Source: Pelotomaculum thermopropionicum SI
GTDB lineage: Bacteria; Bacillota; Desulfotomaculia; Desulfotomaculales; Pelotomaculaceae
DNA length: 64,000 nucleotides
Direction of reading: 5' to 3'
Assembly (NCBI GenBank): GCA_000010565.1
Contig: AP009389.1
Span: 434,001 to 498,000 of the forward strand
Position 1 is the first letter of the stretch. Each line of letters begins with the position of its first letter. The notes beneath the pieces were generated by a model. The model saw only the letters and a list, made by a program, of their open reading frames with translations, had not been told where the DNA came from and did no database searches. This document shows positions 19,173 through 49,239 of the stretch, one piece after another. The translations under genes were made by a program, and so were the position numbers.

Positions 19173-19366
19173 CACGACACCTCTGTTTCACCAGACAAAT
19201 CCGCGGCCGGCCTGCCGCCCGGTGCTGGCTTGTAAGCAGGGCAGGACCGGCGCCGTCCGTTAATATTGTATAAACAGGTATTCTCTAAAAAAAGCCCTTA
19301 CCCTTCTGCAAAAAATTAATCTTTATAGCCATCACAAAAAGGGCCGGTTTGCCGGAGATGTTTATC

Positions 19367-23715: not shown

Positions 23716-24892
23716 ATGTTCCGGGTTAGAAACATCATCGCGGTGGGCATGTATCCGTATCCATGGCATTATCGAGAAATAATCGATACGGTTAGACTAA
23801 TGACCTCTGCTTTCAATGACGTGAATAAGATTTTCCTCAACCCGGCCGTTGGATTCCGCCGCGCCGTTGCAGAAAAAGAAACGCTATGCATAACGTGGAG
23901 GGCGTGCCGGGATAAAGACGTCCTCGTCTGTACCCCGCCGCTCGAATTAATTCCTTCATCTTGGGGCTTAGGCAAAGTGAAGGATACGTGGTCTATCAGG
24001 ACACTTCGCACATTGATCGAACACCTTCTCGGTCCGCGCTGGCGCGAGGAGACTGTTCTGTACGTTTCTTCTGGCGGCATCCCCCAATCCTATAACGTTA
24101 TCAGGGGATTAGGTCCCAAGTACGTTATCTTTGATATCCTCGACGACAATCTAAACTTTCCGGGCATAACTCATCCCGCAGGCGTAGAAAACAAGTTCGT
24201 CTACATACTTCAGAGCGCTACTGTCATTACCGCTGTGTCGCAATTCCTTCTTGACCGCTTGCAGAACGACTACGGTACCACCGCACACTATTTACCAAAT
24301 GGAGTGGACCTTGAAAGGTTTGCCTATCGCCCGGCTTACGCTGTCCCTATCCCGGAGCTGAGCCAACTGGAGAGACCCCTGTTCGGTTTTGTAGGTACGC
24401 TCACTAGCTGGATTGATTTCGAACTACTTGTGGCGACGGCCCAACGCCTTGAGAGGGGGACGCTTAGTCGGCCCGGTCATCCACAGCGCTGTGCCTGCGC
24501 AAATACTACGCGTACTCCACAATCACCCGCGCGTCGCGTTTTTGGGTCCTCGACCCTACGAGCAAGTTCCGCATTTCCTCCATCAATTCGACGTACTCCT
24601 GCTGCCCCGCAATTATGAAAGCCATTCACTGGCTTCCGATCCATTGAAGCTTTACGAATACATGGCCACGGGCAGACCCATAGTGACCACGGCCATACCG
24701 AGTGTGACGCGCTTCAGGGACCTCATATATGTGTGCGAGACCTGGGAGGACTTTTTCTCTTCGTTACGGCGCGCCCTAGATGAATGGTCGGAAGAAAGGG
24801 CAAGCAAAGTGACAAATGCGGTCCGCGAAATGTCATGGCAAAAGCGGGCAGAACGGATGATGAGACTCTTTTACCAGACGATAGCCGGCTAG
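23716..24892 (+). pseudogene. Frameshifted glycosyltransferase (GT1/GT4-like)
   Basis: A glycosyltransferase gene split between two frames. Residues 1-245 (23716 to about 24455) include VITAVSQFLLDRL, HYLPNGVDLERF and LFGFVGTLTSW. The protein then continues in another frame with AFLGPRPYEQVPHFLHQFD, LLPRNYES, SDPLKLYEYMATGRPIV and PSVTRF to 24892. The switch falls at a GGGGG run near 24455-24459; removing one base restores a single protein of about 390 residues. Codon use is more even than in neighbouring genes, suggesting acquisition. It would transfer a sugar in surface polysaccharide synthesis. A sequencing error in the G run would mean it is intact. Confidence 0.75.
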
Positions 24893-24959
24893 TTCCCCCT
24901 ACTTGGGCCGAGGAGGGAAAAGCGGCGAACTTGATTGCTCCGTATCACGGGGCGTCCGA

Positions 24960-25140
24960 CATTCTCTGGCCTTCCGGGTTCAGCTTCAGATTGCAATGTG
25001 CGATAAAGGTTCTTGCCTTTAAAGACAAGCAGAAAAATGAACTTGAAAAGTTCAAGGCAGCTAAATCCTTTTTCCTTTTGAAAATTGGAGCGGCGTAATA
25101 TTTTACCAATTTCGTGCCTGGATAAAAAATTATCCACACG
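24960..25140 (-). mobile_element. Insertion-sequence transposase fragment, N-terminal
   Basis: Read leftward, the frame gives FLSRHEIGKILRRSNFQKEK, then FSCLELFKFIFLLVFKGKNL and YRTLQSEAEPG. This resembles the N-terminus of IS4-type transposases common in Desulfotomaculum relatives. Only about 55 residues remain; the catalytic DDE region is missing. It is joined in frame to the start of a toxin-like gene. Confidence 0.55.
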
Positions 25141-25203
25141 AGAGTAAACCACCCAACCGTTCTTTTCGCAGTATCGCTTCAAGTCCCCAAACTTAGGAGG
25201 CAT
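25141..25203 (-). pseudogene. 5' remnant of toxin gene, HicA-like
   Basis: Starting 2 bp after the antitoxin stop, this frame gives MPPKFGDLKRYCEKNGWVVY, which resembles the N-terminus of small HicA-type toxins. It then runs into the transposase fragment. The toxin therefore lacks its catalytic and C-terminal part and should be inactive. The family assignment rests on about 21 residues only. Confidence 0.45.
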
Positions 25204-25947: not shown

Positions 25948-26739
25948 ATGGTAAGAACTGTAGGCGGGAAAAAAGCAGCGAAGGAAAGGCATACCATCCA
26001 GTCGCTGGAAAGGGCCATTATGATTCTGGAGTACCTCCGCAGGGGGCCGACTTCCCTTTCGGAGCTGAGCCGCGAGCTGGGGTTACATAAGAGCACCGTC
26101 TTCGGCCTTTTGCAGACGCTGGCCTGGCATAACTACGTGCACCAGGAGGAAAAAACCGGCCAGTATTCGCTCGGCTACCGGGTGCTGGCCCTGGGCAGCG
26201 CTTATCTGGAGAACTGCGACCTGCGCAAGGTAGCCGTGCCGTACTTGCGCCAACTGGTTGACGAGTACGGGGAAACCGTCCACCTGGTGATCATGGACGA
26301 CGGCCAGGTGGTCTACGTGGATAAGATTGACAGCCCGCAGTCTATCCGCATGGTTTCGCGCATCGGGAGGCGCCTGCCCGCCCACTGCACCGGCGTGGGC
26401 AAGGCCATGCTGGCGTTTCTGCCGGAGGAGAAGGTGAAGCTTATAGTTGAAAAGCACGGGCTGCCCGGATTTACCCCCAACACCATCACCACGTGGGAAA
26501 GACTGGTTGAAGAACTGGCGCGAATCCGGAAGGAAGGGGTGTCTTTCGACCGGGAGGAGATTGAGGAGGGCCTTTGCTGCGTTGCCGCTCCTGTTATCGG
26601 CTACTACCGCCAGCCAATTGGCGCAATCAGCGTCTCCGGGCCGAAGCTGCGGATGACCGAGGAGAAGATGTCGCTTATAGCCGGATCGCTAAAAGAAATA
26701 GCGGCTGAAATTTCCCGGCAGATGGGCAAAATTTTTTAA
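25948..26739 (+). CDS. IclR-family transcriptional regulator
   Basis: A 263-residue regulator: winged HTH at residues 14-75 (IQSLERAIMILEYLRRGPTS, then LSELSRELGLHKSTVFGLLQ) and the IclR effector domain after about 90 (MVSRIGRRLPAHCTGVGKAM, GFTPNTITTWE, FDREEIEEGLCCVAAPV). IclR proteins bind small acids such as aromatic or glyoxylate-type intermediates and control adjacent catabolic genes. It stands 98 bp before the 26838-32522 operon in the same direction and is its most likely regulator. Start at ATG 25948 with AAAGGAG upstream. Confidence 0.9.
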   Translation: MVRTVGGKKAAKERHTIQSLERAIMILEYLRRGPTSLSELSRELGLHKSTVFGLLQTLAWHNYVHQEEKTGQYSLGYRVLALGSAYLENCDLRKVAVPYLRQLVDEYGETVHLVIMDDGQVVYVDKIDSPQSIRMVSRIGRRLPAHCTGVGKAMLAFLPEEKVKLIVEKHGLPGFTPNTITTWERLVEELARIRKEGVSFDREEIEEGLCCVAAPVIGYYRQPIGAISVSGPKLRMTEEKMSLIAGSLKEIAAEISRQMGKIF

Positions 26740-26837: not shown

Positions 26838-27452
26838 ATGCGCACTGTAACAATGTACCCTGTGGTTGATGCGGAAAAGTGCAGAGGCTGTAAAATATGT
26901 GAACGGGTGTGCCCGGTGCTGTCCATAAAGGTTGAAGCAAAGAAGGCGGCGGTTGCTCTGGAACACTGCCTGGGGTGCGCCAATTGCGAGCAGCGCTGTC
27001 CGGAAACGGCCATCACCATGGTCCGCCTGGAGCAGCCGCGCCTTGTGCGGCAGGCAATGGACGGGCTGGACCAGGATGCCGTGGCCGGCCTCTGCCGGAA
27101 GGCGCGCTTGAACCCCAAGCAAATTATTTGTTACTGCACCGCCACCAGGGCAGAGGAAGCGGCTGCTGCCATTCTGGCGGGAGCCAGGTCGCCGGAGGAT
27201 GTTTCCCGGATGACCGGGGTGCGCTCCGGGTGCAAGGTGGAATGCATCCAGCCGGTTCTCAGGCTTCTGCGGGCAGCCGGTATTGTTCCCGAGCGCCCGG
27301 CCAAAGGGTACCAGTGGTACGGCCTTACGCCGACGGCCTGGGATATTCCCGAGGAGGTCAAGAAAAAATACGGCAAGCGGGGCTTTTATTTTGACGAGGA
27401 CAGGAAAGTGCTGGAGCTTGTCGTGGCTGCTGATGAGAGGAGTGAAGGATGA
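26838..27452 (+). CDS. Ferredoxin / BFD-domain fusion protein
   Basis: A 204-residue iron-sulfur protein. Residues 8-65 hold two 4Fe-4S motifs (CRGCKICERVCP, CLGCANCEQRCP). Residues 95-150 look like a BFD-type [2Fe-2S] domain (ICYCTATRAEEAAAAILAG, SGCKVECIQPVLRLL). The last 50 residues, starting KGYQWYGLTPTAWDIPEEV, are unassigned. It probably passes electrons to or from a redox step in this operon or to an AOR. First gene of the operon, with AAGGGGG upstream; its stop overlaps the start of the next gene (ATGA). Confidence 0.82.
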   Translation: MRTVTMYPVVDAEKCRGCKICERVCPVLSIKVEAKKAAVALEHCLGCANCEQRCPETAITMVRLEQPRLVRQAMDGLDQDAVAGLCRKARLNPKQIICYCTATRAEEAAAAILAGARSPEDVSRMTGVRSGCKVECIQPVLRLLRAAGIVPERPAKGYQWYGLTPTAWDIPEEVKKKYGKRGFYFDEDRKVLELVVAADERSEG

Positions 27453-28891
27453 TGCTGCGCGAGGCTGTTAAACCCCTGCCGCCCAGGCGTTCCCAGTACG
27501 GCATTGCCCCGGAACTGGTGCGCAAGCGGGCCGCAGACCTGCCGGACATGGTTTCTGTTCTGGTGCGGGATCTCTTTCCCGATGCTTCGCCGGTAATCTT
27601 TCCGGGTGAACGCGGCCTGGAGGCCGTCAGGGAAGCTGCCCGCCTTCAACTGGAAAAGGTTGACTTAAGCATGATCAAGCCGGGCGATTCCGTAAACGTT
27701 CTGGGCTCGCACCACGGTTTTACCTTGTTGGGCGGGGCGCCCTACGCGGAAATGCTCAAGGTGATTAAAGACGTCGTGCAGGAGCGGACCGGCTGCAGGG
27801 ATATCCGCCTGCGGGTAGGCGTGGGCCTGCGCTTCCGGGAAAGCGAGGAGTATATTAAGTCATTCGGGCTTGACAAGTATTATGCGGGCAAGGCTGCCGG
27901 GGTTGCCCCGGTGGACGAGGGAGTGGCCATTGAAACCGAAATAGGCACCCTGTATGGAATCAAGAAGATATACGACGCCCGCTGGATTATTCACGCCCAC
28001 AACAGCGACGTGCGCGAGGTGCATTTCCACCGCCAGGTGGACCGGGCCGTAAAGCCTTTCGGCATGTCCTACGCCCGGATTGAAACCCGTTCGACATACC
28101 ACCAGAACCTCGGCCCGCGGGCGGCCAATTTCGTGGCCCGGGCCATTTTCGACTCCCCCTTTGTCCAGGAAAAGTTTGCCTGCGCCGTATTTTTAACCAT
28201 GTCCCCCACCGGCGTGGTGGGCGTGGACGCGGATAACGACCTTTACGCCTTAAACGACCGGGTCACTTACCTGGGGTGCAGGGACTACGGCAAGATGATG
28301 ACTCTTCTGGGGGAAATAGACGAGGCCATTACCATCCTTGATTTCCCTAGCCCCGTGCCTTACGTTTTTGCCGCCGGGGTAATATACGCCAATTTTGTTT
28401 GCGCCAACCGCGATCTCTTCGATCTGGACTACCCGCTGCCCCCCTACACCTGGTACACCGAAGCGTTTTACGGCGAAGACGGCAAGCCCCTGCTGAAGGA
28501 CATTCCGCCGGTCAATCCGGCCATAAAAATGGTGGTCCACAATTACGCCTGGGGCGGTTACCCGAGCGCCTTCTTTACCGAACAGATACCGACCATAATG
28601 GTGGGGCGGGAGCAGGCGGAGCTTTTCAACCAGGACCCGCAAAACCTCAATTACAATAAGCACACCCTGCTGGCCGAGGACCTTGACGGTGCGGTTGCAT
28701 TTGCCAGAAAGGTGACCGGGGTTGACAAAATCATTGCCTTTGACGGTGCCTCTGGAGCTTTGAACGTCAGCCGCCCGCTGGGCGAGTACCTGCTGGCGAA
28801 AGCTCCCGGGGTGGCGCGCCGGGTAAACGAAGAACTGCTTCCCAAGTGGCTTAAGCAGAGAGGCATCGATCCGGCCAGGTTTATCAAATAA
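27449..28891 (+). CDS. Unrecognised 480-residue catabolic-cluster protein
   Basis: A soluble protein of 480 residues, translationally coupled to the ferredoxin gene by an ATGA overlap. Conserved-looking stretches are DSVNVLGSHHGFTLLGGAPY, RLRVGVGLRFRESEEYIK, IIHAHNSDVREVHFHRQVD, FLTMSPTGVVGVDADNDLY and NYAWGGYPSAFF. The many histidines (SHHG, HAHN, HFHR) suggest metal binding. The overall plan vaguely recalls LarA/DUF2088 racemases, but their signature is not evident and I do not assign it. Its place between redox and hydratase genes makes it a candidate for the step that makes or isomerises the oxo-pentenoate-type intermediate. Confidence 0.75.
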   Translation: MMLREAVKPLPPRRSQYGIAPELVRKRAADLPDMVSVLVRDLFPDASPVIFPGERGLEAVREAARLQLEKVDLSMIKPGDSVNVLGSHHGFTLLGGAPYAEMLKVIKDVVQERTGCRDIRLRVGVGLRFRESEEYIKSFGLDKYYAGKAAGVAPVDEGVAIETEIGTLYGIKKIYDARWIIHAHNSDVREVHFHRQVDRAVKPFGMSYARIETRSTYHQNLGPRAANFVARAIFDSPFVQEKFACAVFLTMSPTGVVGVDADNDLYALNDRVTYLGCRDYGKMMTLLGEIDEAITILDFPSPVPYVFAAGVIYANFVCANRDLFDLDYPLPPYTWYTEAFYGEDGKPLLKDIPPVNPAIKMVVHNYAWGGYPSAFFTEQIPTIMVGREQAELFNQDPQNLNYNKHTLLAEDLDGAVAFARKVTGVDKIIAFDGASGALNVSRPLGEYLLAKAPGVARRVNEELLPKWLKQRGIDPARFIK

Positions 28892-28913: not shown

Positions 28914-29732
28914 GTGGCCAGGCACATTTTTCCCGATGACCTGCGCTGGTCGATTTTCCGGGACATGGAGAAAGAGGTTTTCCGGGCGGAGATTATTTCC
29001 ACCCGGCCCACGGTGGCGGCCGGTCTTGACGAGGCGGTGCAGGAGGCGGCTAACCTTGAGCTCCAGGTGCAGGTTATGGTGCAGGAGGGAGAGGTGGTGC
29101 TGCCCGGTTCTCCTATCCTGGTGCTGGCAGGAGCGCCGGTTAATCTGGCCGTGGCCGAAGACAGGGTGCCCGGCTGGATTGGCAAGGCATCGGGCGTGGC
29201 TGCTGCGGCCCGCTTTTTCAAAACGGCGCTGGCCGGCAAACTTCAGGTAGTCTGCGGGGGATGGAAAAAGCTTCCGCTGCCCTGGCGCACGGTGCTGCGC
29301 CGGGCCGTCTCCCTGGGCGGGCTTGCCACCCGCATTGCGGAGCCGCCCTTTCTGTACATCGATAAAAATTACATCCGTATGTTCGGCGGAATTGAAGCCG
29401 CTTTAAAGGCAGTGGCCCATCTGCCGGGCAAAAAAGCGGTACAGCTCAGGGGCGAGCGGGGCGGCATTGCCGCCGAAGCCGAAGAGGCGGTGACGGGAGG
29501 CGCACACATTTTAATGGCCGATACCGGGAGGTTTGAAGACGCCGCCAGGTTGAGCGAATTTCTCCGCGAACGGGGCTGGCGGGAGAAAGTGCAACTGGCC
29601 TTTTCCGGCGGGATAACCGTTCGCGACCTGCCCCTGCTGCTGGAGATGGACCTGGATATAATTGATGTCGGGCGGGCCGTGCTGGATGCACCAATGGCCG
29701 ATTTGCGCTTTGAGGTGCGCGGGAGGGCTTGA
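28914..29732 (+). CDS. NadC/ModD-like protein with altered active site
   Basis: A 272-residue protein with the quinolinate phosphoribosyltransferase (NadC) architecture. The N-terminal domain starts SIFRDMEKEVFRAEI, and the barrel ends LAFSGGITVRDLPLLLEMDL then DIIDVGRAVLDAP. NadC residues that bind quinolinate and phosphoribosyl pyrophosphate are changed: the TRKT-P-R segment reads GGWKKLPLPWR, the HR pair reads TR, and the KDNH segment reads IDKNYI. It is thus unlikely to be a standard NadC. ModD, a related protein of molybdate clusters, is an alternative. The GTG start has TGGAGG upstream. Role in this operon unknown. Confidence 0.7.
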   Translation: MARHIFPDDLRWSIFRDMEKEVFRAEIISTRPTVAAGLDEAVQEAANLELQVQVMVQEGEVVLPGSPILVLAGAPVNLAVAEDRVPGWIGKASGVAAAARFFKTALAGKLQVVCGGWKKLPLPWRTVLRRAVSLGGLATRIAEPPFLYIDKNYIRMFGGIEAALKAVAHLPGKKAVQLRGERGGIAAEAEEAVTGGAHILMADTGRFEDAARLSEFLRERGWREKVQLAFSGGITVRDLPLLLEMDLDIIDVGRAVLDAPMADLRFEVRGRA

Positions 29733-29802: not shown

Positions 29803-30588
29803 TTGGTTGAAAAAAGAATTGAAGAATGGGCAAAGCGCCTTTTGAAGGCCGAGGAAACCTGCGTGCCCGTCGAGCCGCTTACCGAGGAGTGGCCTGCAGT
29901 GGACATACCTGCCGCCTACGCCATTCAGCTAAAGGTACTGGAGCTGAAGCGGGCCGCCGGGCGGAAGGTAATAGGGATGAAGATCGGGTTGACCAGCAAG
30001 GCCATGCAGCAGATGCTGGGGGTGCACGAGCCGGACTACGGGCACGTGCTGGATTCAATGGTTTTGCTGGAAGGGGAGCCGGTGCGCCTGTCCGGCCTGA
30101 TCCAGCCCAAAGTCGAGGCCGAGATTGCTTTTGTGCTGCGGGACCGGCTGTGCGGGCCGGGGGTGCACGCGGCGGATGTGCTGAGGGCTTCTGCCGGCGT
30201 AATGCCTTCGCTGGAAATCATAGATAGCCGTATTAAGGACTGGAAAATAAAGATTCAGGACACCATTGCCGATAACGCTTCGGCCGCGGCAATAATCCTG
30301 GGTGGCGCTCTGGTGCCCGTACAAGGGCTGGATTTGCGTTTAGTTGGACTGACGCTGGAAAAAGACGGCCATGTTTTTGCCACGGCAACGGGCGCTGCGG
30401 TGCTGGGGCACCCGGCGGCGGCGGTGGCCTGGCTGGCCAATGCTATTGCCCCTTACGGCCTGAGCCTGGAACCGGGCATGGTGGTGCTTTCCGGTTCTTT
30501 AACCCAGGCGGTAACGGTGGAGCCCGGAACGGTTATCCATGCAACTTTTGATCGCCTTGGCGCAGTCTCCGTCAAGTTTATAGAATAG
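29803..30588 (+). CDS. mhpD: 2-oxopent-4-enoate hydratase family protein
   Basis: A 261-residue enzyme of the MhpD/DmpE/DmpH family, which hydrates 2-hydroxypenta-2,4-dienoate to 4-hydroxy-2-oxovalerate or decarboxylates 4-oxalocrotonate. Signatures are [42 protein letters not shown] (metal Glu residues) and [20 protein letters not shown]. Hydratase is favoured because the next two genes act on its product, but decarboxylase cannot be excluded. The TTG start has GGGGTGA upstream. It is part of the catabolic operon, with its own upstream box. Confidence 0.85.
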
Positions 30589-30622: not shown

Positions 30623-31519
30623 TTGAAAAAAGTTAAGGCAGCCATTATCGGACCGGGCAACATCGGCACCGACTTAATGTACAAGCTCTTGCGCAGCAAC
30701 TACATAGAGATAGCCTTGATGGTTGGGATTTACCCTCAGTCGGAAGGGCTGGCCAGGGCCAGGTCGCTGGGGATTGAGACTTCACATGAAGGAATCGGTG
30801 CGGTTTTAAGGGAGCCGGACATAAAAATAGTTTTTGACGCAACGGCGGCCAAACCTCACCTTAAACACGCACCTTTGCTGCGCGAGGCGGGCAAGATTGC
30901 CATCGATCTCACTCCTGCGGCGGTGGGACCTTACATGGTGCCGGTTGTCAATATTGATGAACACCTGGAAGCCGATAACGTGAACATGGTTACCTGCGGC
31001 GGCCAGGCTACCGTACCGATTGTGGCTGCCATCAACCGGGTGGCCGGGGTGCGCTACGCAGAAATTGTCGCCTCGCTGGCCAGCAAAAGCGCGGGGCCCG
31101 GAACCCGCCAGAATATCGACGAGTTTACCGAGACCACGGCAAGGGCCCTGGAGGTGGTGGGAGGCGCCGGCAAAGGTAAAGCAATCATCATTCTTAATCC
31201 GGCCGAGCCCCCGATCATGATGCACAACACTATTTACACTCTGGTCGAGAACCCGGATGAAGAATTAATTAAAAGCGCCGTTTTTGAGATGGTAAAGCGC
31301 ATTCAGGAATACGTGCCGGGGTACCGCCTGCAGGTGGAGCCCCTGGTAGAAGGAAACAAGGTAACTACAATCATAGAGGTGACCGGCGCCGGGGACTACC
31401 TGCCGCCTTACGCAGGCAACCTGGACATTATGACTTCGGCCGCCGCCAGGGCGGGAGAATTGATGGCCATGCGGCTGCTGGGCGTTTATAAGCCGGAGAG
31501 GGGTGATAGCTGTGCCTGA
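30623..31519 (+). CDS. mhpF: Acetaldehyde dehydrogenase (acylating)
   Basis: A 298-residue enzyme that turns acetaldehyde, NAD+ and CoA into acetyl-CoA. The NAD-binding motif [18 protein letters not shown] is at the N-terminus, the catalytic Cys is in [15 protein letters not shown] (about residue 122), and [10 protein letters not shown] is typical of MhpF/DmpF. In this family the enzyme forms a complex with the aldolase encoded next and receives acetaldehyde through a tunnel. The TTG start follows GGGAGGGG; the end overlaps the aldolase start. Confidence 0.93.
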
Positions 31520-32522
31520 AATCAGAATAATGGATACCACCTTGCGCGACGGGATGCACGCCATGGCCCACCAGTTCACCCCGGAGCAAATGGCTCAGGT
31601 GGCGGCAGCCCTGGACGAAGCCGGCGTTGACGTAATTGAGGTTACCCACGGCGACGGGCTTGCCGGGTCGTCGTTCCAGTACGGCTTTGCCGCGGCCACC
31701 GACGAGGAATATTTAGAGGCTGTGGCGCCGGTGCTGAAAAAAGCCAAGCTGGCCGCCCTGATCCTGCCCGGCATTGGCACCTGCAGGGACATGCGCATGG
31801 CCGTCCAGGCCGGAGTAAAGGTTTTCCGCATTGCCACCCATGTTACCGAAGCGGACATATCGGAGGAGCATATGGGCCTGGCCAAAGAAATGGGGGCCGA
31901 GGTGGTCGGCTTTCTGATGATGTCCCATACGGTTGGAAAAGAAAAAATTGCCGAACAGGCTAAACTTATGGAAAGTTACGGGGCGGACGTGGTCTACATG
32001 GTGGATTCGGCAGGGGCCATGATCCCGCCGGAAGTAACGGAAAAGATTGGCTATTTAAAGGAAGTTCTCAATATTCCGGTGGGCTTCCACGCCCATAACA
32101 ACCTGGGCCTGGCCGTGGGCAACACCCTGGCCGCGGTGGCCGCCGGGGCGACGGCGGTGGACGGGACGCTGCGCGGCCTGGGGGCCGGGGCCGGCAATAC
32201 CAGCACGGAGGTCCTGGTGGCGGCCCTCAAGAAAGCCGGTTACCAGGTGGGTGTTGACCTGTACAAAATAATGGATGCGGCAACGGTGCTGGAACCGATG
32301 ATGCGCCGGCCGCAGGTAATAGACAACGCCTCGATCATTCTGGGCTATGCAGGCGTTTATTCCAGCTTTCTTTTGCATACCTACAGGGCGGCCGAAAGGT
32401 TCGGCCTGGACCCGCGGGACATTTTAATGGAACTCGGCCGCCGCAAGGTGGTTGGAGGACAGGAGGACTATATTGTAGACGTGGCCTACGAAATGTCCAG
32501 GAATAAGTCCCGGGCAGTCTAA
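31512..32522 (+). CDS. mhpE: 4-hydroxy-2-oxovalerate aldolase
   Basis: A 336-residue metal-dependent aldolase splitting 4-hydroxy-2-oxovalerate into pyruvate and acetaldehyde. The [10 protein letters not shown] opening and the metal-binding [14 protein letters not shown] (HxH) are hallmarks of DmpG/MhpE and related HMGL-like enzymes. The C-terminal communication domain is present ([20 protein letters not shown]). GTG 31512 is favoured, 8 bases after GAGAGGGG; GTG 31503 is possible. It overlaps mhpF by 8 bp, so both partners are made together. Confidence 0.93.
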
Positions 32523-32548: not shown

Positions 32549-32684
32549 TGGCCTGCGCAGTACGTTTTGAGGGGGTGGGAAAGGTTTAATTGCGGGAGGC
32601 TGCAGGCACTTGCAGGGGTCGAAGGCAGGGCTTGGAAGTTCGTTTGGAGCAAAAAGCTTTAATTAAGTAAAGGAGGGGTTGTTT

Positions 32685-33887
32685 GTGTTTCCAACACTGA
32701 AGGTAGTCCAGTACTATACGCCACAAAAGAAGGTCTTTGGTGTAAATGCGGTGGATAACATTGGCGTTTACCTCAAGGAAATGGGATTGAGCGGAAAGGC
32801 TATAATCATCACCGACCCCGGTATTGCAGCGGCCGGCCTGCCCGAAAGGTTAATAAAAGCCCTTGAAAAAGAAGGTTTTAAAGCTGCGGTGTACGATCAG
32901 GGCAAGCCCGAACCTGACGATATTTCGTGCGATCAGGCTGCAGAATTTGCCCGCAAGGAAAAGGGCGATTTTGTAATAGGCTTTGGCGGCGGCAGCTCCA
33001 TTGACATCGCCAAGGTGGTGGCACAGCTCCTCGTGTTGCCCGGTGTAACGGACGATTATTTGATTAACACCACCTTTCCGAAAAAAGGAGCACCCATCAT
33101 TGCCGTGCCGACTACCTCCGGGACGGGCACCGAGTGCACCATGTACTCGGTCATAACGTTTGCCAAAGACGGGATTAAGGGCTTTTTTGGCACGCCGACC
33201 ATTCTGCCCGACATGGCCCTGGTGGATCCCACCCTTACCATAAGCATGCCTCCCGGCGTAACTGCTTCTACCGGTATTGATGCCCTTTCCCATGCGATTG
33301 AAACGATGATGGCCAGGCAGGAAAACCCGTTTACCGACGCCGTTGCCATAAAAGCCATCGAGCTTATTGCAGAGGCCCTGCCCGTTGCCGTCTATGAAGG
33401 GGACAACCTGGAAGCGCGGGTTAAAATGTCCTACGGTTCGATGATGGCCGGCATTGCCTTCCAGGATCCGGGCATTGTCGAAGGCCACGCCCTGGCCCAC
33501 ACCCTGGGTTCGGTTTACCACGTGCCGCACGGCGTCGGATGCGCCATTGCGCTGCCCTACGCCATGGAATATAACATGGGCCACTGCATGGAAAAGCTGG
33601 CCCGCATTGCCGTTGCCATGGGCCAGAACACCGCCGGCATGAGCGTCCGCCAGGCAGCCCAGACTGCGGTGTTTGCGGTTAAACAATTAATTGAGGATGT
33701 TAAACTGCCCATTACCTGGGCAAAGTACGGCAAGAAGGAAGATATACCCAAGCTGACCGACATGATGGTGGAAAGCCCGTGGATTACCGCCTTCTACGGC
33801 TGGTCCAAGCGGAAGATGACCAGGGAGGCGGCGCTGGAACTGCTGACCAGGAGCTACGAGGGACGCCTTGGCGAAGCCCTTTACTAG
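32685..33887 (+). CDS. Iron-type alcohol dehydrogenase 1
   Basis: A 400-residue group III (iron-dependent) alcohol dehydrogenase. NAD(P)-binding GFGGGSSIDIAK lies at about residue 100. Metal ligands are in GIDALSHAIET and in GHALAHTLGSVYHVPHGVG. It interconverts an alcohol and aldehyde. It lies directly after the genes that make acetaldehyde and before an AOR cluster, so ethanol/acetaldehyde is plausible. GTG 32685 suits AGGAGGGG; the TTG six bases upstream abuts it. Confidence 0.9.
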   Translation: MFPTLKVVQYYTPQKKVFGVNAVDNIGVYLKEMGLSGKAIIITDPGIAAAGLPERLIKALEKEGFKAAVYDQGKPEPDDISCDQAAEFARKEKGDFVIGFGGGSSIDIAKVVAQLLVLPGVTDDYLINTTFPKKGAPIIAVPTTSGTGTECTMYSVITFAKDGIKGFFGTPTILPDMALVDPTLTISMPPGVTASTGIDALSHAIETMMARQENPFTDAVAIKAIELIAEALPVAVYEGDNLEARVKMSYGSMMAGIAFQDPGIVEGHALAHTLGSVYHVPHGVGCAIALPYAMEYNMGHCMEKLARIAVAMGQNTAGMSVRQAAQTAVFAVKQLIEDVKLPITWAKYGKKEDIPKLTDMMVESPWITAFYGWSKRKMTREAALELLTRSYEGRLGEALY

Positions 33888-33948: not shown

Positions 33949-34827
33949 GTGGAACTGAACCTGCTGGAAAAAACCGAGTTGTGGATAACCGGCGTGGAGC
34001 TGGACAGGGCCAACCTGAACGAGGTAGCCGCCGCCGTTGCCGGCGTGCTGAAGCTGCCCGCGGAGAGCGTTCTGGTAATTGACGTGCGGGACGGCGTGGT
34101 GGCGCTGGATATTTTAAGGCGAAAAATAATGGCGGAGCAGATCGTCGGGAAGGAAAGGGAATTGCTGGCCTCCCTGGCCGCTGTAAGCGGAGTGCGGCTG
34201 ACGCCCCGGGCTGCCGTTCATGCCCGGGGAATCCTCGGCCTGATTGCCGCCGACCCGGAGCAGCGGGAGGAAATCCTGGAGCGCGCCGGCCGGCTGGCCG
34301 AGCAGGTAAAATCCACTGCTGCCCGGCGGGGGATGGTTTTTGCTACGGGCCGCGAGGTGCAGGAGGGGCTGATCGAGGACACCAACTCTCCTTACCTGAT
34401 CGAGCTTTTTGAGAAAAACGGTTATAGAATGCGTTTCGGCGGCGTACTGCCGGACGACCTCGAGACGATCACCGGCCGCCTGCGTGCGGCGGCCGCGGAG
34501 GGTTACGGCCTGGTGGTCACCACCGGCGGCGTGGGCGCGGAGGACAAGGACTTTACCGTGGAAGGCATCTGCCGGCTGGACCCTCTGGCCGAAACCCCGT
34601 CGATCCTGCACTTTCACGCCGGGCAGGGAAGGCATGTTAAAGGCGGTGTGCGCATTGCCGTCGGCAGGGCCGGCTTAACCACTTTTGTTGCCCTGCCCGG
34701 CCCCCACGACGAGGTGCGGCTGGCCGCCCCGGTGCTGCTGGAAGGACTAAAGGCGGGGGCGGACAAAAAGCATCTGGCCGGCGCTCTGGCAGGGGTTCTG
34801 CGGGAGAAGTGGCGCCGAGCATTTTAA
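33949..34827 (+). CDS. Molybdopterin-binding-domain protein (CinA/MoaB-like)
   Basis: A 292-residue protein. The C-terminal half from about residue 125 is a MoCF-type domain (ATGREVQEGLIEDTNSPYLI, VLPDDLETITGRL, VVTTGGVGAEDKDF), as in CinA N-termini, MoaB and MogA. The first 120 residues are unassigned. Such domains bind molybdopterin or adenylate it. It sits just before a ferredoxin and a tungstopterin AOR, suggesting service to cofactor insertion or regulation. GTG start with AAGGAGAAGG upstream. Confidence 0.78.
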   Translation: MELNLLEKTELWITGVELDRANLNEVAAAVAGVLKLPAESVLVIDVRDGVVALDILRRKIMAEQIVGKERELLASLAAVSGVRLTPRAAVHARGILGLIAADPEQREEILERAGRLAEQVKSTAARRGMVFATGREVQEGLIEDTNSPYLIELFEKNGYRMRFGGVLPDDLETITGRLRAAAAEGYGLVVTTGGVGAEDKDFTVEGICRLDPLAETPSILHFHAGQGRHVKGGVRIAVGRAGLTTFVALPGPHDEVRLAAPVLLEGLKAGADKKHLAGALAGVLREKWRRAF

Positions 34828-34858
34828 TACCAAAATAATGCCTGGAGGTGACCTGTTA

Positions 34859-35320
34859 ATGTCCAAAGTTCTGGTAGTTGACCCTTCCAAATGTACCGGC
34901 TGTCACCGCTGTGAAATGTGGTGCTCGCTGACGAAGTACGGCGAAATCAATCCATCTCGAAGCAATGTCTACGTAATCCGGCGGGAGCCGGCGGTGGATG
35001 TGCCGGTGGTCTGTGTGCAGTGCGGCCTGTGCGTGGACGTTTGCCCCGTTGAAGCGCTAAAGCGCAATGGGAAGACCGATGCGGTAGTGGTAGACGCTGA
35101 ATCGTGTACGGGCTGCGGCACCTGCGTGAAGGTATGCCCTTACGGGGTGCTCAGGATCGACGAAGAAACAGATACGGCGGCCAAGTGCGACCTGTGCGGC
35201 GGTTCGCCTGCCTGCGCCGGGCACTGCCCGCATGGCGCCATCCGGTATGAGGACGCGGGCAAAGCCGCGGCCAGAAGACGGGAACAGTGGGCAACGGCCA
35301 TTGCCATAAAAATCAGCTAG
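34859..35320 (+). CDS. Polyferredoxin electron carrier for AOR
   Basis: A 153-residue iron-sulfur protein with a four-cluster pattern like the DMSO-reductase/HydN-type electron-transfer subunits: CTGCHRCEMWCS, CVQCGLCVDVCP, CTGCGTCVKVCP and CDLCGGSPACAGHCP. It starts 15 bp upstream of the AOR gene, to which it is very likely the electron-transfer subunit. ATG 34859 follows GGAGGTGA; a frame start at 34838 is unsupported. Confidence 0.85.
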   Translation: MSKVLVVDPSKCTGCHRCEMWCSLTKYGEINPSRSNVYVIRREPAVDVPVVCVQCGLCVDVCPVEALKRNGKTDAVVVDAESCTGCGTCVKVCPYGVLRIDEETDTAAKCDLCGGSPACAGHCPHGAIRYEDAGKAAARRREQWATAIAIKIS

Positions 35321-35335
35321 CGGGAGGTGGTAGGA

Positions 35336-37216
35336 ATGTACGGTTATACAGGCAATTTACTGCGGGTGAATTTGACAAGCGGCGAAATAAAGGTTGAGAA
35401 GCTGGACGAGAAAGAACTGCGCAAGTATATGGGCTGCACGGGCTACGCGGCAAAGCTGCTTTACCAGGAGATGCCGGCAGGCGTCGACCCTCTTGCCCCG
35501 GAAGCCAAGGTGGTTTTCGCCACCGGGGCCGTAACCGGAACCCTCTGCCCCAGCGGCGGCAGTTACGAGGTTTGCTACAAGTCGCCCCTGACCGGCACCT
35601 GGAACGAAGCCCGGTCGGGCGGGGCATTCGGCCCCAAGCTCAAATATGCCGGGTTTGACTTTCTGGTTGTGGAGGGCAAGGCCGAGGAGCCGGTCTACCT
35701 TTTAATTAAGGACGGCCGGGCTGAAATTAAGCCTGCCAAGCACCTGTGGGGCCTTAATGTGGAAGAGACTACAGATGCGATAATTAACGAGCTGGACGAT
35801 CCGGAAGTGTCCGTGGCAGCCATCGGCCAGGCCGGCGAAAACGGTGTGCTGTACGCGGCGCTGATTAACGACAGGGGACGGGCCGCCGGCCGCGGCGGGA
35901 TCGGCGCGGTGCTGGGGAGCAAGAACCTGAAAGCTGTTGTTGCCAACGGCAGCGGCGGAATCAAGGTGGCCCGCCCGAAAGAGTTTGCGGAAGTCATAGA
36001 CAAGGCGGAGCAGTGGCTGAAAAACTATCCCTTTGCCGCCATTCCGGAAATGGGCACGGTAGGCTTGCTGTCCGGCAATAATGCCATGGGAATGCTTCCG
36101 ACCAGAAACTTCCAGACCGGCTTTTTTGAGAATGCCGACAAGGTTGCCGGCGAAGTGGTCAACCGGAAGTACCAGATCAAAAGGCGCGCCTGCTATGGAT
36201 GCAGCTTTGGCTGCGGCCGCTACACCGCGGTAAGCGGCGGCAAGTTTGCCACCCCGCCCATGGAAGGGCCGGAGTACGAAACGGCGGACATGCTGGGCCC
36301 GATTTGCGGGGTTGACGATATCGAGGCGATAATTAGGGGCAACTTCCTCTGCAATGTATACGGGCTGGACACCATCAGCACCGGCATAAGCATCGGCTTT
36401 GCCATGGAGTGTTACGAAAGAGGGCTGCTGACCGACAGGGATACAGACGGAATACCCCTGCGCTGGGGCGATGCAGAAGCGGTGGTGAAACTGGTGGAAA
36501 AAATAGCCCACCGGGAGGGCATTGGCGACCTGCTGGCGCTGGGCGTGAAACGCATGGCAGAAAAGCTCGGGCCCCGGGCTGAAGACGCGGCCATCCACGT
36601 CAAGGGCCTGGAGCTGCCGGCCCACGAGCCACGGGTGGAATCCAAAGCTCTGGCCGTTCAGTACGCCGTATCGCCGCGGGGAGCCTGCCATATGCACCCG
36701 AACTGGCCCAGCACCTGGGACTTCCAGGTTGACTGCGGCATGAAGGATCTAGGCATACCCTGGCCGCCAACGGGAGGCATGCAGGACGAGTCGCCGGTCA
36801 AAGGCGTTGCCTACCGGTACGTGGCCCTGCAGGGCGAAATCAGCGAAATCCTGGGCGCCTGCATCTTCCATTCCTGGGGCAGTGAAGGCAGTTGCCTGAC
36901 GCCGCAGCTTTACGCCGAAATTATGAAAGCCCTTACCGGCTGGGACGTTACTGCCGAGGAACTGGTTACTGCCGCAGAGCGCTCTTGGAATCTCAAGCGG
37001 TGCTTTAACGCCCGCGAAGGTTTTGACCGCAAGGACGACAGGCTGCCCAAGCGGATTTCCGAGCCGATCCCGGACGGTCCTTCGGCCGGCGCCAGGGTTG
37101 AAAACCTGGACCGGATGCTGGATGCTTATTACGAAGCGATGGGCTGGGACAGGAGTACCGGCCTGCCCACCGCCGGCAAGCTGAAAGAGCTGGGTCTGGA
37201 GTTTGCCGTCGGGTAA
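35336..37216 (+). CDS. Aldehyde:ferredoxin oxidoreductase 1
   Basis: A 626-residue tungstopterin enzyme oxidising aldehydes to acids with ferredoxin, or the reverse with low-potential electrons. The N-terminal domain starts YGYTGNLLRVNLTSGEIKVE. The 4Fe-4S cluster cysteines are in RRACYGCSFGCGRY (CxxCxxxC) plus a later Cys (GACIFHSW). The pterin-binding region and ARVENLD-type tail are family-like. ATG 35336 has GGGAGGTGG upstream. With its ferredoxin it forms a two-gene unit, preceded by the MoCF protein and flanked by alcohol dehydrogenases. Confidence 0.92.
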   Translation: MYGYTGNLLRVNLTSGEIKVEKLDEKELRKYMGCTGYAAKLLYQEMPAGVDPLAPEAKVVFATGAVTGTLCPSGGSYEVCYKSPLTGTWNEARSGGAFGPKLKYAGFDFLVVEGKAEEPVYLLIKDGRAEIKPAKHLWGLNVEETTDAIINELDDPEVSVAAIGQAGENGVLYAALINDRGRAAGRGGIGAVLGSKNLKAVVANGSGGIKVARPKEFAEVIDKAEQWLKNYPFAAIPEMGTVGLLSGNNAMGMLPTRNFQTGFFENADKVAGEVVNRKYQIKRRACYGCSFGCGRYTAVSGGKFATPPMEGPEYETADMLGPICGVDDIEAIIRGNFLCNVYGLDTISTGISIGFAMECYERGLLTDRDTDGIPLRWGDAEAVVKLVEKIAHREGIGDLLALGVKRMAEKLGPRAEDAAIHVKGLELPAHEPRVESKALAVQYAVSPRGACHMHPNWPSTWDFQVDCGMKDLGIPWPPTGGMQDESPVKGVAYRYVALQGEISEILGACIFHSWGSEGSCLTPQLYAEIMKALTGWDVTAEELVTAAERSWNLKRCFNAREGFDRKDDRLPKRISEPIPDGPSAGARVENLDRMLDAYYEAMGWDRSTGLPTAGKLKELGLEFAVG

Positions 37217-39670: not shown

Positions 39671-41773
39671 TTGAGCAGGCCAAGCAGTTTTACCAGGCCT
39701 AAATCCGTGGCAGTTATCGGGGCCTCGAACAAGCCGGGCAAGATAGGCTGCGCCCTGGTCAGCAACCTGATCGAGAGCGGTTACCAGGGCAGGATATTTC
39801 CGGTAAACTCCAGGGAAAAAGAAATCCTGGGGCTACCCTGCTTTCCCTCCGTTGCCGACATACCGGAGGAGGTGGAAACGGCAGTTTTTGCCGTGCCGGC
39901 CCCAAAAGTCCTGGACGCCGCCGCCGGGTGCGGCCGGAAGGGAGTCAAAAACCTGGTGGTTCTAACGGCGGGCTTTAAAGAGATGGGCCGCGAGGGCATG
40001 GAGCTGGAGAAAAAATTTCTGGGCGTCTGCAAAGAGTACGGCATGCGCATGCTGGGCCCCAACTGCGTGGGTTTTCTGGACACCCATACTCCCATCAACG
40101 CCACCTTTTTGAAAGGCTTTCCGGCCAGAGGGGAAATAGCCTTTATATCCCAGAGCGGGGCGATGCTGGCGGCCATTCTGGACTGGAGCAAAAGCGCCGG
40201 GATAGGTTACAGCAAGATTTACAGCCTTGGGAACAAGGCCGATTTAAACGAAGTCGACTGCATCGCCGAGGCCGCGGACGACCCCAACACCAAAGTAATA
40301 CTCTGCTACATTGAAGACGTGGCCTGCGGCCCCGAATTTCTGAGAGTCGTATCGCAGGCAACCCGCAAGAAGCCGGTAATTATTTTAAAATCCGGCACCA
40401 GCCAGGCCGGGGCGCAGGCGGCGTCGTCCCACACCGGGGCGCTGGCCGGCAGCGACCTGGCCTACAACACCGCCTTCAAGCGGTGCGGCGTGATAAGAGT
40501 CGACAGCATGTCCGAGCTTTTTGACCTGGCCATAGCCTTTGTCAACCAGCCCGTACCCAAAGGCAGGAAGGTGGCAATTGTTACCAACTCAGGCGGGCCC
40601 GGCATTATTGCCACAGACAAAGTTGAAGCGCACGGGTTGACCATGGCCCGCTTTACAAAAGATACCATTGAAGAGCTGCGCCTGGGGCTGCCTCCCGAGG
40701 CCGGCATCTACAACCCCGTGGACGTGCTGGGAGACGCCAGGGCCGACCGCTTCAAGTTTGCCCTGGAGAAGGTGCTGCGGGACGAGAACGTTGACGGCGC
40801 GGCGGTGCTGCTGTGCCCCGTGGCGGTTACCCAGCCGGTCGAGACGGCCCAGGCCCTGATCGAGCTGAACAAAGCTTTTCCGGAAAAACCCCTGATAGCC
40901 GCCTACATGGGCGGGCAGGCCCTGGCCGAAGGAGTCAGGCTGCTTACCGAAAACCGCATTCCCTGCTTTACCATGCCCGAACCCGCCATAGCCGCCCTGG
41001 CCGGCATGGTAAAGTACAGAGAAATGACCGAAAAACCAGAAATAGAGGAAAAGGCCGCCGATTTCAGGCCGGATCAGAAGACGGTGAAAGCAGTATTTTA
41101 CGACGTTAAAAAAGACAACCGCCTGGCCCTGCTCGGAAGCGAGGCGGCAGAAGTAATAGCAGCATACGGCGTGGCGGCGGTTGCCACCGAATTGTCCCAG
41201 AGCCCTGAAGAGGCTGCGGCCATAGCCGACAGAATAGGTTATCCCGTGGTTTTAAAAGTAGCTTCACCAAAAATCCTGCACAAGACCGACGTAGGCGGGG
41301 TAATAACCGGAATCCGTTCGGCCGGAGAAGTTAAAAGCGCTTACGTGACCATCATGGAAAACGTGCACCGGTATTTGCCCAGGGTCATCCCCCACGGCAT
41401 AGAAGTGCAGAAGATGGTGCCCAAAGGAGTCGAACTGATCGTGGGCATGACCCGGGACGTGCAGTTCGGCCCACTGATCGGGTTCGGCCTGGGGGGCATT
41501 TACGTGAACCTGCTCAAAGACGTTTCCTTCAGGCTGGCCCACGGCTTGACCGGTGCCGAAATAGCAGAGATGATAGCCGAAACCAAAGCGTACACCCTGA
41601 TTAAAGGGTACCGCGGCGAAAACCCCGTTGACCTCGGCGCAGTGAGCGAAGTAATCAGGCGCACGGCCATGCTTGCGGTAGATTTTCCGGAAATCATGGA
41701 AATAGACATCAACCCCGTATTTGCCTACGAGCATGGAGTCGCCGCCCTGGATGTCAAAATTACCCTGTCGTGA
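39671..41773 (+). CDS. ADP-forming acyl-CoA synthetase, fused alpha-beta
   Basis: A 700-residue NDP-forming acyl-CoA synthetase (acyl-CoA + ADP + Pi to acid + ATP + CoA). Residues 1-130: CoA-binding domain (PKSVAVIGASNKPGKIG). 150-290: succinyl-CoA-synthetase-like domain with the phosphate-carrying His in ASSHTGALAGSD. About 480-700: ATP-grasp domain (YPVVLKVASPKILHKTDVGG, GMTRDVQFGPLIGFGLGG, MEIDINPVF). The alpha and beta parts are fused, as in many bacteria. It would give substrate-level ATP from acetyl-CoA made by the MhpE/F route or acyl-CoA from other steps. TTG start with AGAGGTGA upstream. Confidence 0.9.
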   Translation: MSRPSSFTRPKSVAVIGASNKPGKIGCALVSNLIESGYQGRIFPVNSREKEILGLPCFPSVADIPEEVETAVFAVPAPKVLDAAAGCGRKGVKNLVVLTAGFKEMGREGMELEKKFLGVCKEYGMRMLGPNCVGFLDTHTPINATFLKGFPARGEIAFISQSGAMLAAILDWSKSAGIGYSKIYSLGNKADLNEVDCIAEAADDPNTKVILCYIEDVACGPEFLRVVSQATRKKPVIILKSGTSQAGAQAASSHTGALAGSDLAYNTAFKRCGVIRVDSMSELFDLAIAFVNQPVPKGRKVAIVTNSGGPGIIATDKVEAHGLTMARFTKDTIEELRLGLPPEAGIYNPVDVLGDARADRFKFALEKVLRDENVDGAAVLLCPVAVTQPVETAQALIELNKAFPEKPLIAAYMGGQALAEGVRLLTENRIPCFTMPEPAIAALAGMVKYREMTEKPEIEEKAADFRPDQKTVKAVFYDVKKDNRLALLGSEAAEVIAAYGVAAVATELSQSPEEAAAIADRIGYPVVLKVASPKILHKTDVGGVITGIRSAGEVKSAYVTIMENVHRYLPRVIPHGIEVQKMVPKGVELIVGMTRDVQFGPLIGFGLGGIYVNLLKDVSFRLAHGLTGAEIAEMIAETKAYTLIKGYRGENPVDLGAVSEVIRRTAMLAVDFPEIMEIDINPVFAYEHGVAALDVKITLS

Positions 41774-46666: not shown

Positions 46667-46707
46667 ATGCAGGCGTGCTGCTGCAGCAGAGGAAGGAGTC
46701 ACGAATA

Positions 46708-47892: not shown

Positions 47893-49239
47893 GTGTCTCA
47901 TTCTTTGCGGGAGTGGCTGGCGTTTTTAGAGGGCAAAGGCAAGTTGAAGCGGGTAAGAAAAGAAGTGGATCCGGTTTTTGAAATTGCTGCCCTGGGCAAG
48001 CAGGCTGACGGCATCTGCTCTTTGCTTTTTGAAAGGGTGAAAGGGTACGCCGTGCCTGTGGTTACGGGGCTGGCCGGAGACAGGGAGCTTTTTGCCGCCG
48101 CCATGTCCGTGCCGGTGGAAGGCATGCTGGAAAAGCTGGCTGCGGCGGTGGAAAACCCGGTCCCCTGCCGGCTGGTTTCCCCGGACGGGGCCCCGGTAAA
48201 GGAATGCATAATAAGGGAAAATATCGACCTGTTAAAAATGCTGCCCATTCCCACCCATCATGCCGGGGACGCAGGGCCTTATATTACGGCGGCCATACTG
48301 ATTGCCAGGGACCCGGACAGCGGGGTGCGGAATGTTTCCATTCACAGGCTGCAGGTAACCGGCCCGGACCGGCTGGGGATATTAATTCTCCCCCGCCACC
48401 TGTGGCATTTCTTCGGGAAGGCCGAACGGGCCGGCCGGCCGCTGGAAATAGCCCTGGCCATTGGAGTTCACCCGGCCGTGCTGCTGGCCTCCCAGGCGAC
48501 AACCAGGCTGGGGGTGGACGAACTGGAAATTGCCAGCGCGCTTTTGCCGCAGCCGCTGGAACTGGTTAAATGTGAAACGGTGGACGTCGAGGTCCCGGCC
48601 GGGGCGGAAATAGTAATTGAAGGAAAAATTCTCCCCGGCGTCAGGGAGGTCGAAGGGCCTTTCGGGGAGTACCCCAGGTATTACGGCCCGGCCGCCCCGA
48701 GGCCGGTGGTGGAAGTAACCGCAGTTACGCACCGCCGGCAGCCGGTGTACCATACCATTATTCCGGCCTCCCGCGAGCACCTCCTTTTGGGCGGGATTGC
48801 CCGCGAGGCCGTGCTGCTGCAAACCGTCCGCCAGGCGGTGCCCACCGTGAAAAACGTGCATTTAACGCCGGGCGGAAGCTGCCGCTATCATGCCGTCATC
48901 TCCATCGAGAAAAAGCATGAAGGCGAGGCTAAAAATGCAATTTTTGCCGCGTTCACCAGCAGCAGCGAGGTAAAGCACGTGGTGGTGGTGGACCACGAGA
49001 TCAACATTTTCGACCCGGAAGAGGTTGAATGGGCGGTTGCAACGCGCTGCCAGGCGGGGCGGGACGTTTTCATAGTGAAAGACGCCATGGGCAACCGGCT
49101 GGACCCCTCCAGCAGGGACGGCGTAAGCGATAAAATGGGGATAGACGCCACCATTCCCCTGAACCTGCCCGGGGAAAGGTTTGAACGGATCAGCATCCCC
49201 GGCCTCGACAAAATAAAGCTGGCCGACTACCTTGAATGA
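47893..49239 (+). CDS. UbiD-family prenylated-FMN decarboxylase
   Basis: A 448-residue UbiD-type enzyme. Hallmarks are NVSIHRLQVTGPDRLGI, VEGPFGEYPRYYGP (Glu/Pro around the prFMN site), IPASREHLLLGGIAREA and VVVVDHEINIFDPEEVEWAV. The family decarboxylates, or in reverse carboxylates, aromatic and alpha,beta-unsaturated acids. No UbiX (prFMN maker) is adjacent. A role in making or using an aromatic or unsaturated acid linked to the AOR is likely; the substrate is not readable from sequence. GTG start with GGAGGGCGGGAG upstream. Confidence 0.9.
   Translation: MSHSLREWLAFLEGKGKLKRVRKEVDPVFEIAALGKQADGICSLLFERVKGYAVPVVTGLAGDRELFAAAMSVPVEGMLEKLAAAVENPVPCRLVSPDGAPVKECIIRENIDLLKMLPIPTHHAGDAGPYITAAILIARDPDSGVRNVSIHRLQVTGPDRLGILILPRHLWHFFGKAERAGRPLEIALAIGVHPAVLLASQATTRLGVDELEIASALLPQPLELVKCETVDVEVPAGAEIVIEGKILPGVREVEGPFGEYPRYYGPAAPRPVVEVTAVTHRRQPVYHTIIPASREHLLLGGIAREAVLLQTVRQAVPTVKNVHLTPGGSCRYHAVISIEKKHEGEAKNAIFAAFTSSSEVKHVVVVDHEINIFDPEEVEWAVATRCQAGRDVFIVKDAMGNRLDPSSRDGVSDKMGIDATIPLNLPGERFERISIPGLDKIKLADYLE

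Follow-up and report, generated by a model that had tools for sequence, protein, structure and literature searches.

The gene at positions 28914-29732 (+) of our window, the 64,000-nucleotide stretch of the Pelotomaculum thermopropionicum SI genome that was analysed, encodes a protein of 272 aa (GTG start) that has the QAPRTase fold with a rebuilt base pocket and that we name NadC*. It forms a subfamily of its own within a known fold and is encoded inside a conserved module together with a 480-aa protein predicted to adopt the LarA fold. We consider it moderately likely that the module provides a cofactor for this adjoining LarA-fold enzyme and that NadC* is the enzyme in it that handles phosphoribosyl groups. 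The membership of NadC* in the module is well supported; its reactions we infer.

NadC* was recognized by the Pfam domains QRPTase_N (33.6 bits, cut-off 27) and QRPTase_C (47.4 bits, cut-off 23.1), and an AlphaFold2 model based on 46 sequences reached a pLDDT of 95.9. The best PDB matches of this model in Foldseek were QAPRTases, headed by 3paj (E 3.5e-21), which places the protein within the QAPRTase fold. At the level of individual families, NadC* scored 80.1 bits against the nadC equivalog TIGR00078, which requires 198.4 bits, and gave no match to the ModD model TIGR01334 at E 1e-3, while two of its relatives obtained 19.0 and 25.3 bits in the latter model (cut-off 178.85). These TIGR01334 scores rule out membership in ModD, and the comparison with the NadC and ModD families that an earlier note on this sequence had proposed leaves NadC* outside the cut-offs of both. 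A partial match to the nicotinate phosphoribosyltransferase model NF006415 covered residues 20-137 with 41.4 bits, under the cut-off of 243. A canonical nadC (354.6 bits as nadC) is present elsewhere in the same genome, a single contig of 3,025,375 bases, and a genome-wide search with QRPTase_C gave 217.5 bits for the canonical NadC and 48.1 for NadC*. By eye, the canonical gene lies near nadB-like and nadA-like ORFs, and NadC* belongs to a catabolic operon without nadA/nadB, as had been noted earlier. A plain NadC isozyme is disfavoured by the TIGR00078 score and by the pocket, yet among six NadC*-bearing genomes only four contain a NadC above the nadC cut-off. The two without one, G226 and G116, have another partial QPRT-like match in longer frames (352-378 aa), which are perhaps nicotinate PRTases, and NAD in these genomes may come from salvage.

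To describe the base pocket, we compared 62 distinct NadC* sequences with five canonical NadCs from this and related genomes, using M. tuberculosis residue numbers assigned by motif. The 62 are the distinct union of two alignments with 46 and 23 rows (A4 and A2), the former consisting of the window protein and 45 of the 46 listed relatives, with that of L171 excluded. R105, which we take to be one of the cationic residues of the NadC quinolinate site, is replaced by Glu (41), Asp (20) or Asn (1). In porcine QAPRTase, the 3-carboxylate of NaMN is described as held by Arg138, His160, Arg161, and Lys171, the ribose by Glu201 and Asp222, and the phosphate by Lys139, Asn223, Gln274, and glycine backbones (PMC3633916). 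Among the 62 NadC* sequences, R139 is replaced by Trp (56), Phe (4), Tyr (1) or Val (1) in the motif-based register, K172 by Asp in every sequence, and H161 by Ile (17), Phe (15), Thr (10), Met (7), Val (5), Leu (4) or, once each, Pro, Gly, Gln, and Ser, so that no sequence has His at this place. T141 has become Lys and N223 Thr throughout, D173 is Lys in 61, H175 is Tyr (56), Phe (5) or Leu (1), and the ribose-side E201 is replaced by Arg (44), Lys (16), His (1) or Thr (1). By contrast, R162 is kept in 61 of 62, and on the phosphoribosyl side K140 (61/62) and D222 (62/62) are retained. Within the cationic quinolinate-site set (R105, R139, H161, R162, K172), only R162 is therefore generally kept, with R139 possibly represented by K118, as the TRKT register is ambiguous by one residue and a profile alignment sets K118 opposite R139 and K119 opposite K140. 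In addition, K119, D150, K151, and D203 of NadC* are invariant in all 46 aligned sequences.

Judged from these alignments, either register shows a rebuilt carboxylate-binding side whose charges are reversed, and the phosphoribosyl-side Lys and Asp remain. Decay or chance is excluded because the pocket is conserved over many genera, and the putative pocket is a conserved alternative site. A dicarboxylate ligand is disfavoured because the positions of R105 and K172 are acidic (61/62 and 62/62) and that of E201 is basic (61/62). The changes from TRKT...R, HR, and KDNH to WKKLP...R, TR, and IDKNY that the earlier note had read from the single sequence are real, and the same pocket is altered in the 62 relatives; its observation that the quinolinate site is lost is borne out and is more general than first stated, and its interpretation holds only in part, as discussed below.

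The gene for the 480-aa protein (27449..28891, +) ends 22 bases upstream of NadC* and is itself overlapped by 4 bases by the gene for a protein with a 4Fe-4S ferredoxin and a BFD-like [2Fe-2S] domain (Fd/BFD; 26838..27452, +; Pfam Fer4 and Fer2_BFD), the proposed electron donor. The 480-aa protein had no sequence match in Pfam, NCBIfam or the PDB, including an hmmsearch of the PDB, and did not reach the Lar_N or LarAH models. For its AlphaFold model (pLDDT 89.2), all six Foldseek matches at E <= 1e-3 were LarA-type (8ezh, E 1.6e-8), and VIA gave the top 12 entries Z scores of 16.4-19.9, with 6.6 in the next row, the top entries aligning 319-346 residues at an rmsd of 4.0-6.9. Eleven of these 12 are named as lactate/malate racemase or LarA-like; the twelfth, 4nar, was judged by its protein name alone, and we take it to be a LarA homolog. 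In LarA_Sp, Lys195 is described as tethering the nickel-pincer nucleotide (NPN) and His211 as a Ni ligand (PMC12611868). The 480-aa protein has K202 and H218, 16 residues apart (Lys-x15-His), in all 41 sequences of alignment A3 (the window and 40 of 62 full-length 480-aa genes), a spacing that matches Lys195/His211 and by which the two pairs are equated. A Lys-His pair with the same spacing of 16 occurs in 14 of 19 LarA relatives; among the other five, L180 gave NH at a different place and the remaining four show Gly where the Lys would be. The catalytic His108 of LarA is without a clear counterpart, as a weak hhalign register sets a Leu or Arg of the 480-aa protein at this place, and several invariant His lie near the place of LarA His174. 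Sequence profiles showed no significant kinship (hhalign probability 1.2%, E 0.044; no PDB match by hmmsearch), and the relationship to LarA is one of predicted fold and Lys-His spacing only. On these features, the 480-aa protein is predicted to be a previously unrecognised relative of the nickel-cofactor racemases with the LarA (NPN) fold.

NadC* and the 480-aa protein occur together. In a survey of 398 genomes of the phylum (E <= 1e-10 for the 480-aa protein, E <= 1e-33 for NadC*), the former was found in 27 genomes and NadC* profile matches in 30; all 27 genomes with the 480-aa gene contain NadC*, compared with 3 of the 371 without it (Fisher p 7e-39). Of these three, G049 has NadC* on a 4.3-kb contig, the G379 genome has a completeness of 84%, and G091 genuinely departs from the pattern: here NadC* adjoins larB and a larE-like gene, also lies by yqeB and an XdhC-type gene, and the 480-aa gene is absent. 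These surroundings support the Lar link of NadC* apart from the furan route discussed later; a wider look around G091 met with just 3 genomes in its class. When named genomes were scanned with the alignment of the 480-aa protein, 121 relatives were obtained and 80 loci retained, including those of Moorella, Desulfoscipio, Clostridium magnum, Sporomusa, Oscillibacter, Flavonifractor, Breznakiella, Alicyclobacillus, a Desulfarculus MAG, and an Archaeoglobus MAG. The module of NadC* and the 480-aa protein is spread over many mostly anaerobic microbes, and no published description of it was found in the titles and abstract openings of a limited literature set.

In the 35 of these 80 loci that extend beyond 8 kb in each direction (full-flank loci), genes were counted by tblastn (E < 1e-8, with at most 8 random members per family as queries) because ORF calls based on the longest frame missed genes where the GC content is high. 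The 480-aa protein and Fd/BFD were present in all 35, NadC*, the MoCF-domain protein, and the hydratase in 34 each, the IclR regulator in 33, aldolase and acetaldehyde dehydrogenase in 27 each, BenE in 20, and a PepQ-like protein in 18, followed by LarC (16), LarB (14), LarE (10), aldehyde:ferredoxin oxidoreductase (AOR, 8), UbiD (5), and LarA (2). NadC* and the 480-aa gene share a strand in all 69 loci with NadC*. The MoCF-domain partner of NadC* (MogA/MoeA/CinA-like, by Pfam/NCBIfam matches) also shares its strand and lies within 250 bp of it in 59 of 67 named loci; in the window it is encoded 4.2 kb further on, on the same strand (33949..34827, +). A further alignment (A5) comprised 40 sequences, that of the window and 39 of 47. 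The IclR-family regulator of the cluster (Pfam/NCBIfam) is encoded at 25948..26739 (+).

The genes for ordinary NPN synthesis accompany the module at the level of the genome and, in many relatives, of the cluster. By BLAST, larB, larC, and larE lie together at a remote place in the window genome, and a single representative taken from each of the LarB, LarC, and LarE clusters passed the curated cut-offs. Lar_N gave two weak matches in this genome (best E 3.9e-4) and no strong LarA match. A strong LarB match (E at most 2.6e-51) was found in 26 of the 27 genomes with the 480-aa gene; LarB exceeded its cut-off in 217 of the 398 genomes, and one of the 26, G362 (E 2.6e-51), may fall just under it. 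In the Alicyclobacillus loci L156 and L161, the order is larE-larB-larC-Fd-480-NadC*-MoCF, with hydratase, aldolase, and acetaldehyde dehydrogenase absent from the stretch covered, and a NiCoT nickel transporter adjoins the module in L151. Counting against a cofactor module, larB, larC, and larE lie near the cluster in under half of the full-flank loci. Overall, the LarA-fold neighbour and the larB, larC, and larE genes sharing the cluster in many relatives, a context that the earlier note had missed, point to the supply of a pyridinium cofactor rather than to the binding of a catabolic substrate.

We also considered a special LarB clade belonging to the cluster, which is not supported, as the cluster label needs 10 changes among 41 LarBs and does not form one clade. 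The cluster LarBs are somewhat clustered all the same (9 of 500 shuffles were as low), and their interspersion with ordinary LarBs implies no special LarB chemistry. A LarA homolog was observed near the cluster in L123, L125, L147, L159, and L171, with Gly at the place of the NPN-tethering Lys in the four examined (L125, L147, L159, and L171). The Alicyclobacillus modules have other partners, a gene that by eye resembles an acyl-CoA ligase and a lactate-permease-like transporter that scored below the cut-off, hinting at another substrate there.

In the window, NadC* is followed by genes for a 2-oxopent-4-enoate hydratase-like protein of the FAH superfamily (29803..30588, +; best model TIGR03220, 292.6 bits, below the cut-off of 408.8), an acetylating acetaldehyde dehydrogenase (30623..31519, +; TIGR03215, 470 bits, cut-off 282.25), a 4-hydroxy-2-oxovalerate aldolase (31503..32522, +; TIGR03217, 514.5 bits, cut-off 286), and an iron-containing alcohol dehydrogenase (32679..33887, +; several Fe-ADH models, all under their cut-offs). 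Beyond the MoCF gene lie a ferredoxin (34838-35320, +; Pfam Fer4), an AOR (35327-37216, +; Pfam AFOR_N/AFOR_C), an ADP-forming acyl/acetyl-CoA ligase (39671..41773, +; TIGR02717, 577.3 bits, cut-off 567.15), and a second AOR-like gene (44834-46666, +) and a second iron-containing alcohol dehydrogenase (46675-47871, +), both with matches under the equivalog cut-offs. Such a lower route would use 2-hydroxypenta-2,4-dienoate or 2-oxopent-4-enoate, and the AORs, alcohol dehydrogenases, and ADP-forming ligase would fit furfural oxidation and energy conservation.

A furan substrate is suggested by HmfF (47893..49239, +), the furan-2,5-dicarboxylate decarboxylase that gives 2-furoate, which is encoded 18 kb downstream of NadC* and matches 6h6v_A over 448 of 448 residues (E 7.7e-300). 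The PDB entry names its molecule only as a UbiD-type decarboxylase, and we take it to be PtHmfF. P. thermopropionicum HmfF is described as a furandicarboxylate decarboxylase that carboxylates furoate to furandicarboxylate (PMC8252502). Orthologs with 54-68% identity, which adjoin the cluster in other genera, were found in 12 of 111 cluster-derived loci, two of which (L067 and L105) are the same contig, in addition to a partial one at the edge of L094 and a distant one (36.5%) in L140. By formula, 2-furoate (C5H4O3) plus 2H equals 2-hydroxypenta-2,4-dienoate (C5H6O3), which the hydratase route would use, and on this basis we propose a reductive opening of the furoate ring; cleavage of the C5-O bond would give 2-hydroxypentadienoate, as composition and context suggest. 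Two observations count against this furan reading: HmfF-like genes lie near the cluster in a minority of loci only, and the Alicyclobacillus loci are without the hydratase route. Other substrates are allowed by molybdenum-hydroxylase-like or other genes at other loci; molybdenum-hydroxylase-like genes were seen beside the cluster in L112 and L171 by eye and in L118 by clustering. An oxidative furfural route has been proposed for Desulfovibrio furfuralis (PMC11384913), and a 2018 review, which describes the known furan route as needing oxygen, expected anaerobic degraders to reveal other furan pathways (PMC6604932).

Several further features of the window were observed. A glycosyltransferase-like gene (by eye) at 23716-24892 (+) appears to be split over two overlapping frames (23716-24618 and 24413-24892), which suggests a frameshifted remnant. 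Upstream of the IclR gene, a fragment at 24889-25203 (-) shares 41 consecutive identical residues with a transposase-like ORF of 465 aa that lies at another place in the genome (L208, 15990-17387) and is probably the remnant of an insertion sequence. An ABC-transporter ATPase, by eye like that of a tungstate/molybdate-type importer, is encoded at 18417-19175 (-), about 16 kb before the first AOR.

That NadC* is closely tied to the LarA-fold enzyme, keeps its phosphoribosyl side, and is paired with MoCF suggests that it probably makes or tailors the pyridinium nucleotide of that enzyme. Ordinary LarA systems are described as starting from NaAD and using LarB, LarE, and LarC (PMC11796402), and NadC* and MoCF beside a LarA-fold enzyme would mean that the ring or the form of the nucleotide differs or that a handling step is added. 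In the mechanism that we propose, NadC* would work through the phosphate/ribose site that it retains, attaching phosphoribosyl to, or exchanging it on, a pyridine-type ring without the quinolinate carboxylates, and the MogA/CinA-like MoCF protein would act on the 5'-phosphate, by adenylylation or its reversal; the two would thereby supply or tailor a cofactor that ordinary LarB/LarE/LarC chemistry starts or finishes. The 480-aa protein would carry this nickel-pincer-type nucleotide, receive electrons from the Fd/BFD protein, and open 2-furoate reductively to 2-hydroxypenta-2,4-dienoate, which the hydratase and aldolase would turn into pyruvate and acetaldehyde, and the ADP-forming ligase would conserve energy from acetyl-CoA. 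The cofactor role has points against it, as the ribose-hydroxyl-binding E201 of QAPRTase is lost in NadC* and ordinary LarA systems need neither NadC* nor MoCF. The full proposal, in which anaerobes reductively open the 2-furoate ring with two electrons on a new, Fd/BFD-fed LarA-fold enzyme of nickel-pincer type, with a new pyridinium nucleotide made or finished by NadC* and its MogA-like partner, is tentative, and we regard it as possible rather than probable.

The loss of the quinolinate residues and of E201, the retention of the phosphate/ribose side, and the tight tie to the 480-aa protein would also suit a NadC* that handles the finished NPN mononucleotide without catalysis or by phosphorolysis, serving its delivery, repair or recycling for the LarA-fold protein. 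This seems unlikely, as the invariant K119, D150, K151, and D203 look catalytic rather than merely structural, and LarA homologs get loaded without any NadC*-like protein. In another reading, which is rather unlikely, NadC* has diverged but still forms NaMN in the ordinary way, as a quinolinate or nicotinate phosphoribosyltransferase, and so raises the supply of NaAD to LarB. LarB is reported to use NaAD (PMC11796402), two of the six NadC*-bearing genomes have no NadC over the nadC cut-off, and the partial NF006415 match could be read in the same sense; however, nearly all relatives carry acids in place of the cationic residues that bind carboxylates, a canonical nadC is present in the window genome and in four of the six, and the remaining two have the longer frames that are perhaps nicotinate PRTases.

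The earlier note offered two readings, a different phosphoribosyl step, which our results support as a reading, and the binding of another ring carboxylate, by which NadC* would act directly in catabolism. The latter has become very unlikely: the operon is indeed catabolic, with a BenE-type transporter in 20 of the 35 full-flank loci, but PRPP would be costly to spend on a bulk substrate, the cationic residues are lost from the pocket in favour of the charge pattern given above, HmfF and the hydratase route account for the catabolic substrate without NadC*, and the Alicyclobacillus loci retain NadC* without hydratase and aldolase. Least likely of all is a ModD-like role in which NadC* would serve molybdenum/tungsten enzymes, for example the AORs. 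Neighbouring AORs, the MoCF-domain protein, and the yqeB and XdhC-type genes by the G091 relative could be cited for it, but the TIGR01334 scores stand against it and AOR occurs in only 8 of the 35 full-flank loci, compared with 34 for NadC*.

A phosphoribosyl-handling role of NadC* in cofactor supply, if true, would make it the first dedicated phosphoribosyltransferase for the nickel-pincer cofactor family, and NadC* and MoCF would be additional biosynthetic genes for this cofactor. The furoate reaction, if true, would be real reductive chemistry on the nickel-pincer nucleotide, not hidden-redox racemisation. In a published survey, about 15% of genomes lacked larA despite having larB, larE, and larC, and NPN-binding proteins other than LarA were suspected (PMC11796402); the 480-aa family is a concrete candidate for such a protein. 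The module looks like a new branch of nickel-pincer enzymology, and its genes can be tested in organisms that are culturable, among them Moorella, Clostridium magnum, and Sporomusa.

In comparison with known systems, NadC* resembles NadC (TIGR00078; PDB 3paj, 4i9a, 2jbm) in fold, length, the Lys equivalent to K140, R162, and D222, and differs in its acidic R105 position, mostly Trp at R139, lost H161, Asp at K172, and basic E201 position, in its score under the nadC cut-off, and in its location away from nadA/nadB and tied to a LarA-fold gene. To our knowledge, ModD (TIGR01334) is a NadC-fold paralog whose function is unsolved, a likeness to NadC*, which scores far under the ModD cut-off. The 480-aa partner is similar to the LarA superfamily in its predicted fold and Lys-x15-His pair, and larB, larC, and larE of the LarA pathway share the cluster with the module in many relatives; it differs in having no sequence match to the Lar_N or LarAH models and in the extra Fd/BFD, NadC*, and MoCF. 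The Trudgill (hmfABCDE/F) furan pathway has HmfF, from furandicarboxylate to furoate, in common with the window, whereas the clusters carry a hydratase/aldolase/acetaldehyde dehydrogenase set that the furoyl-CoA hydroxylation route, as outlined in PMC6604932, would not need. Finally, the window MoCF protein shares the C-terminal MoCF domain (PF00994) with MogA/CinA proteins, and it is distinguished from them by about 125 N-terminal residues outside the PF00994 match and by its regular pairing with NadC*.
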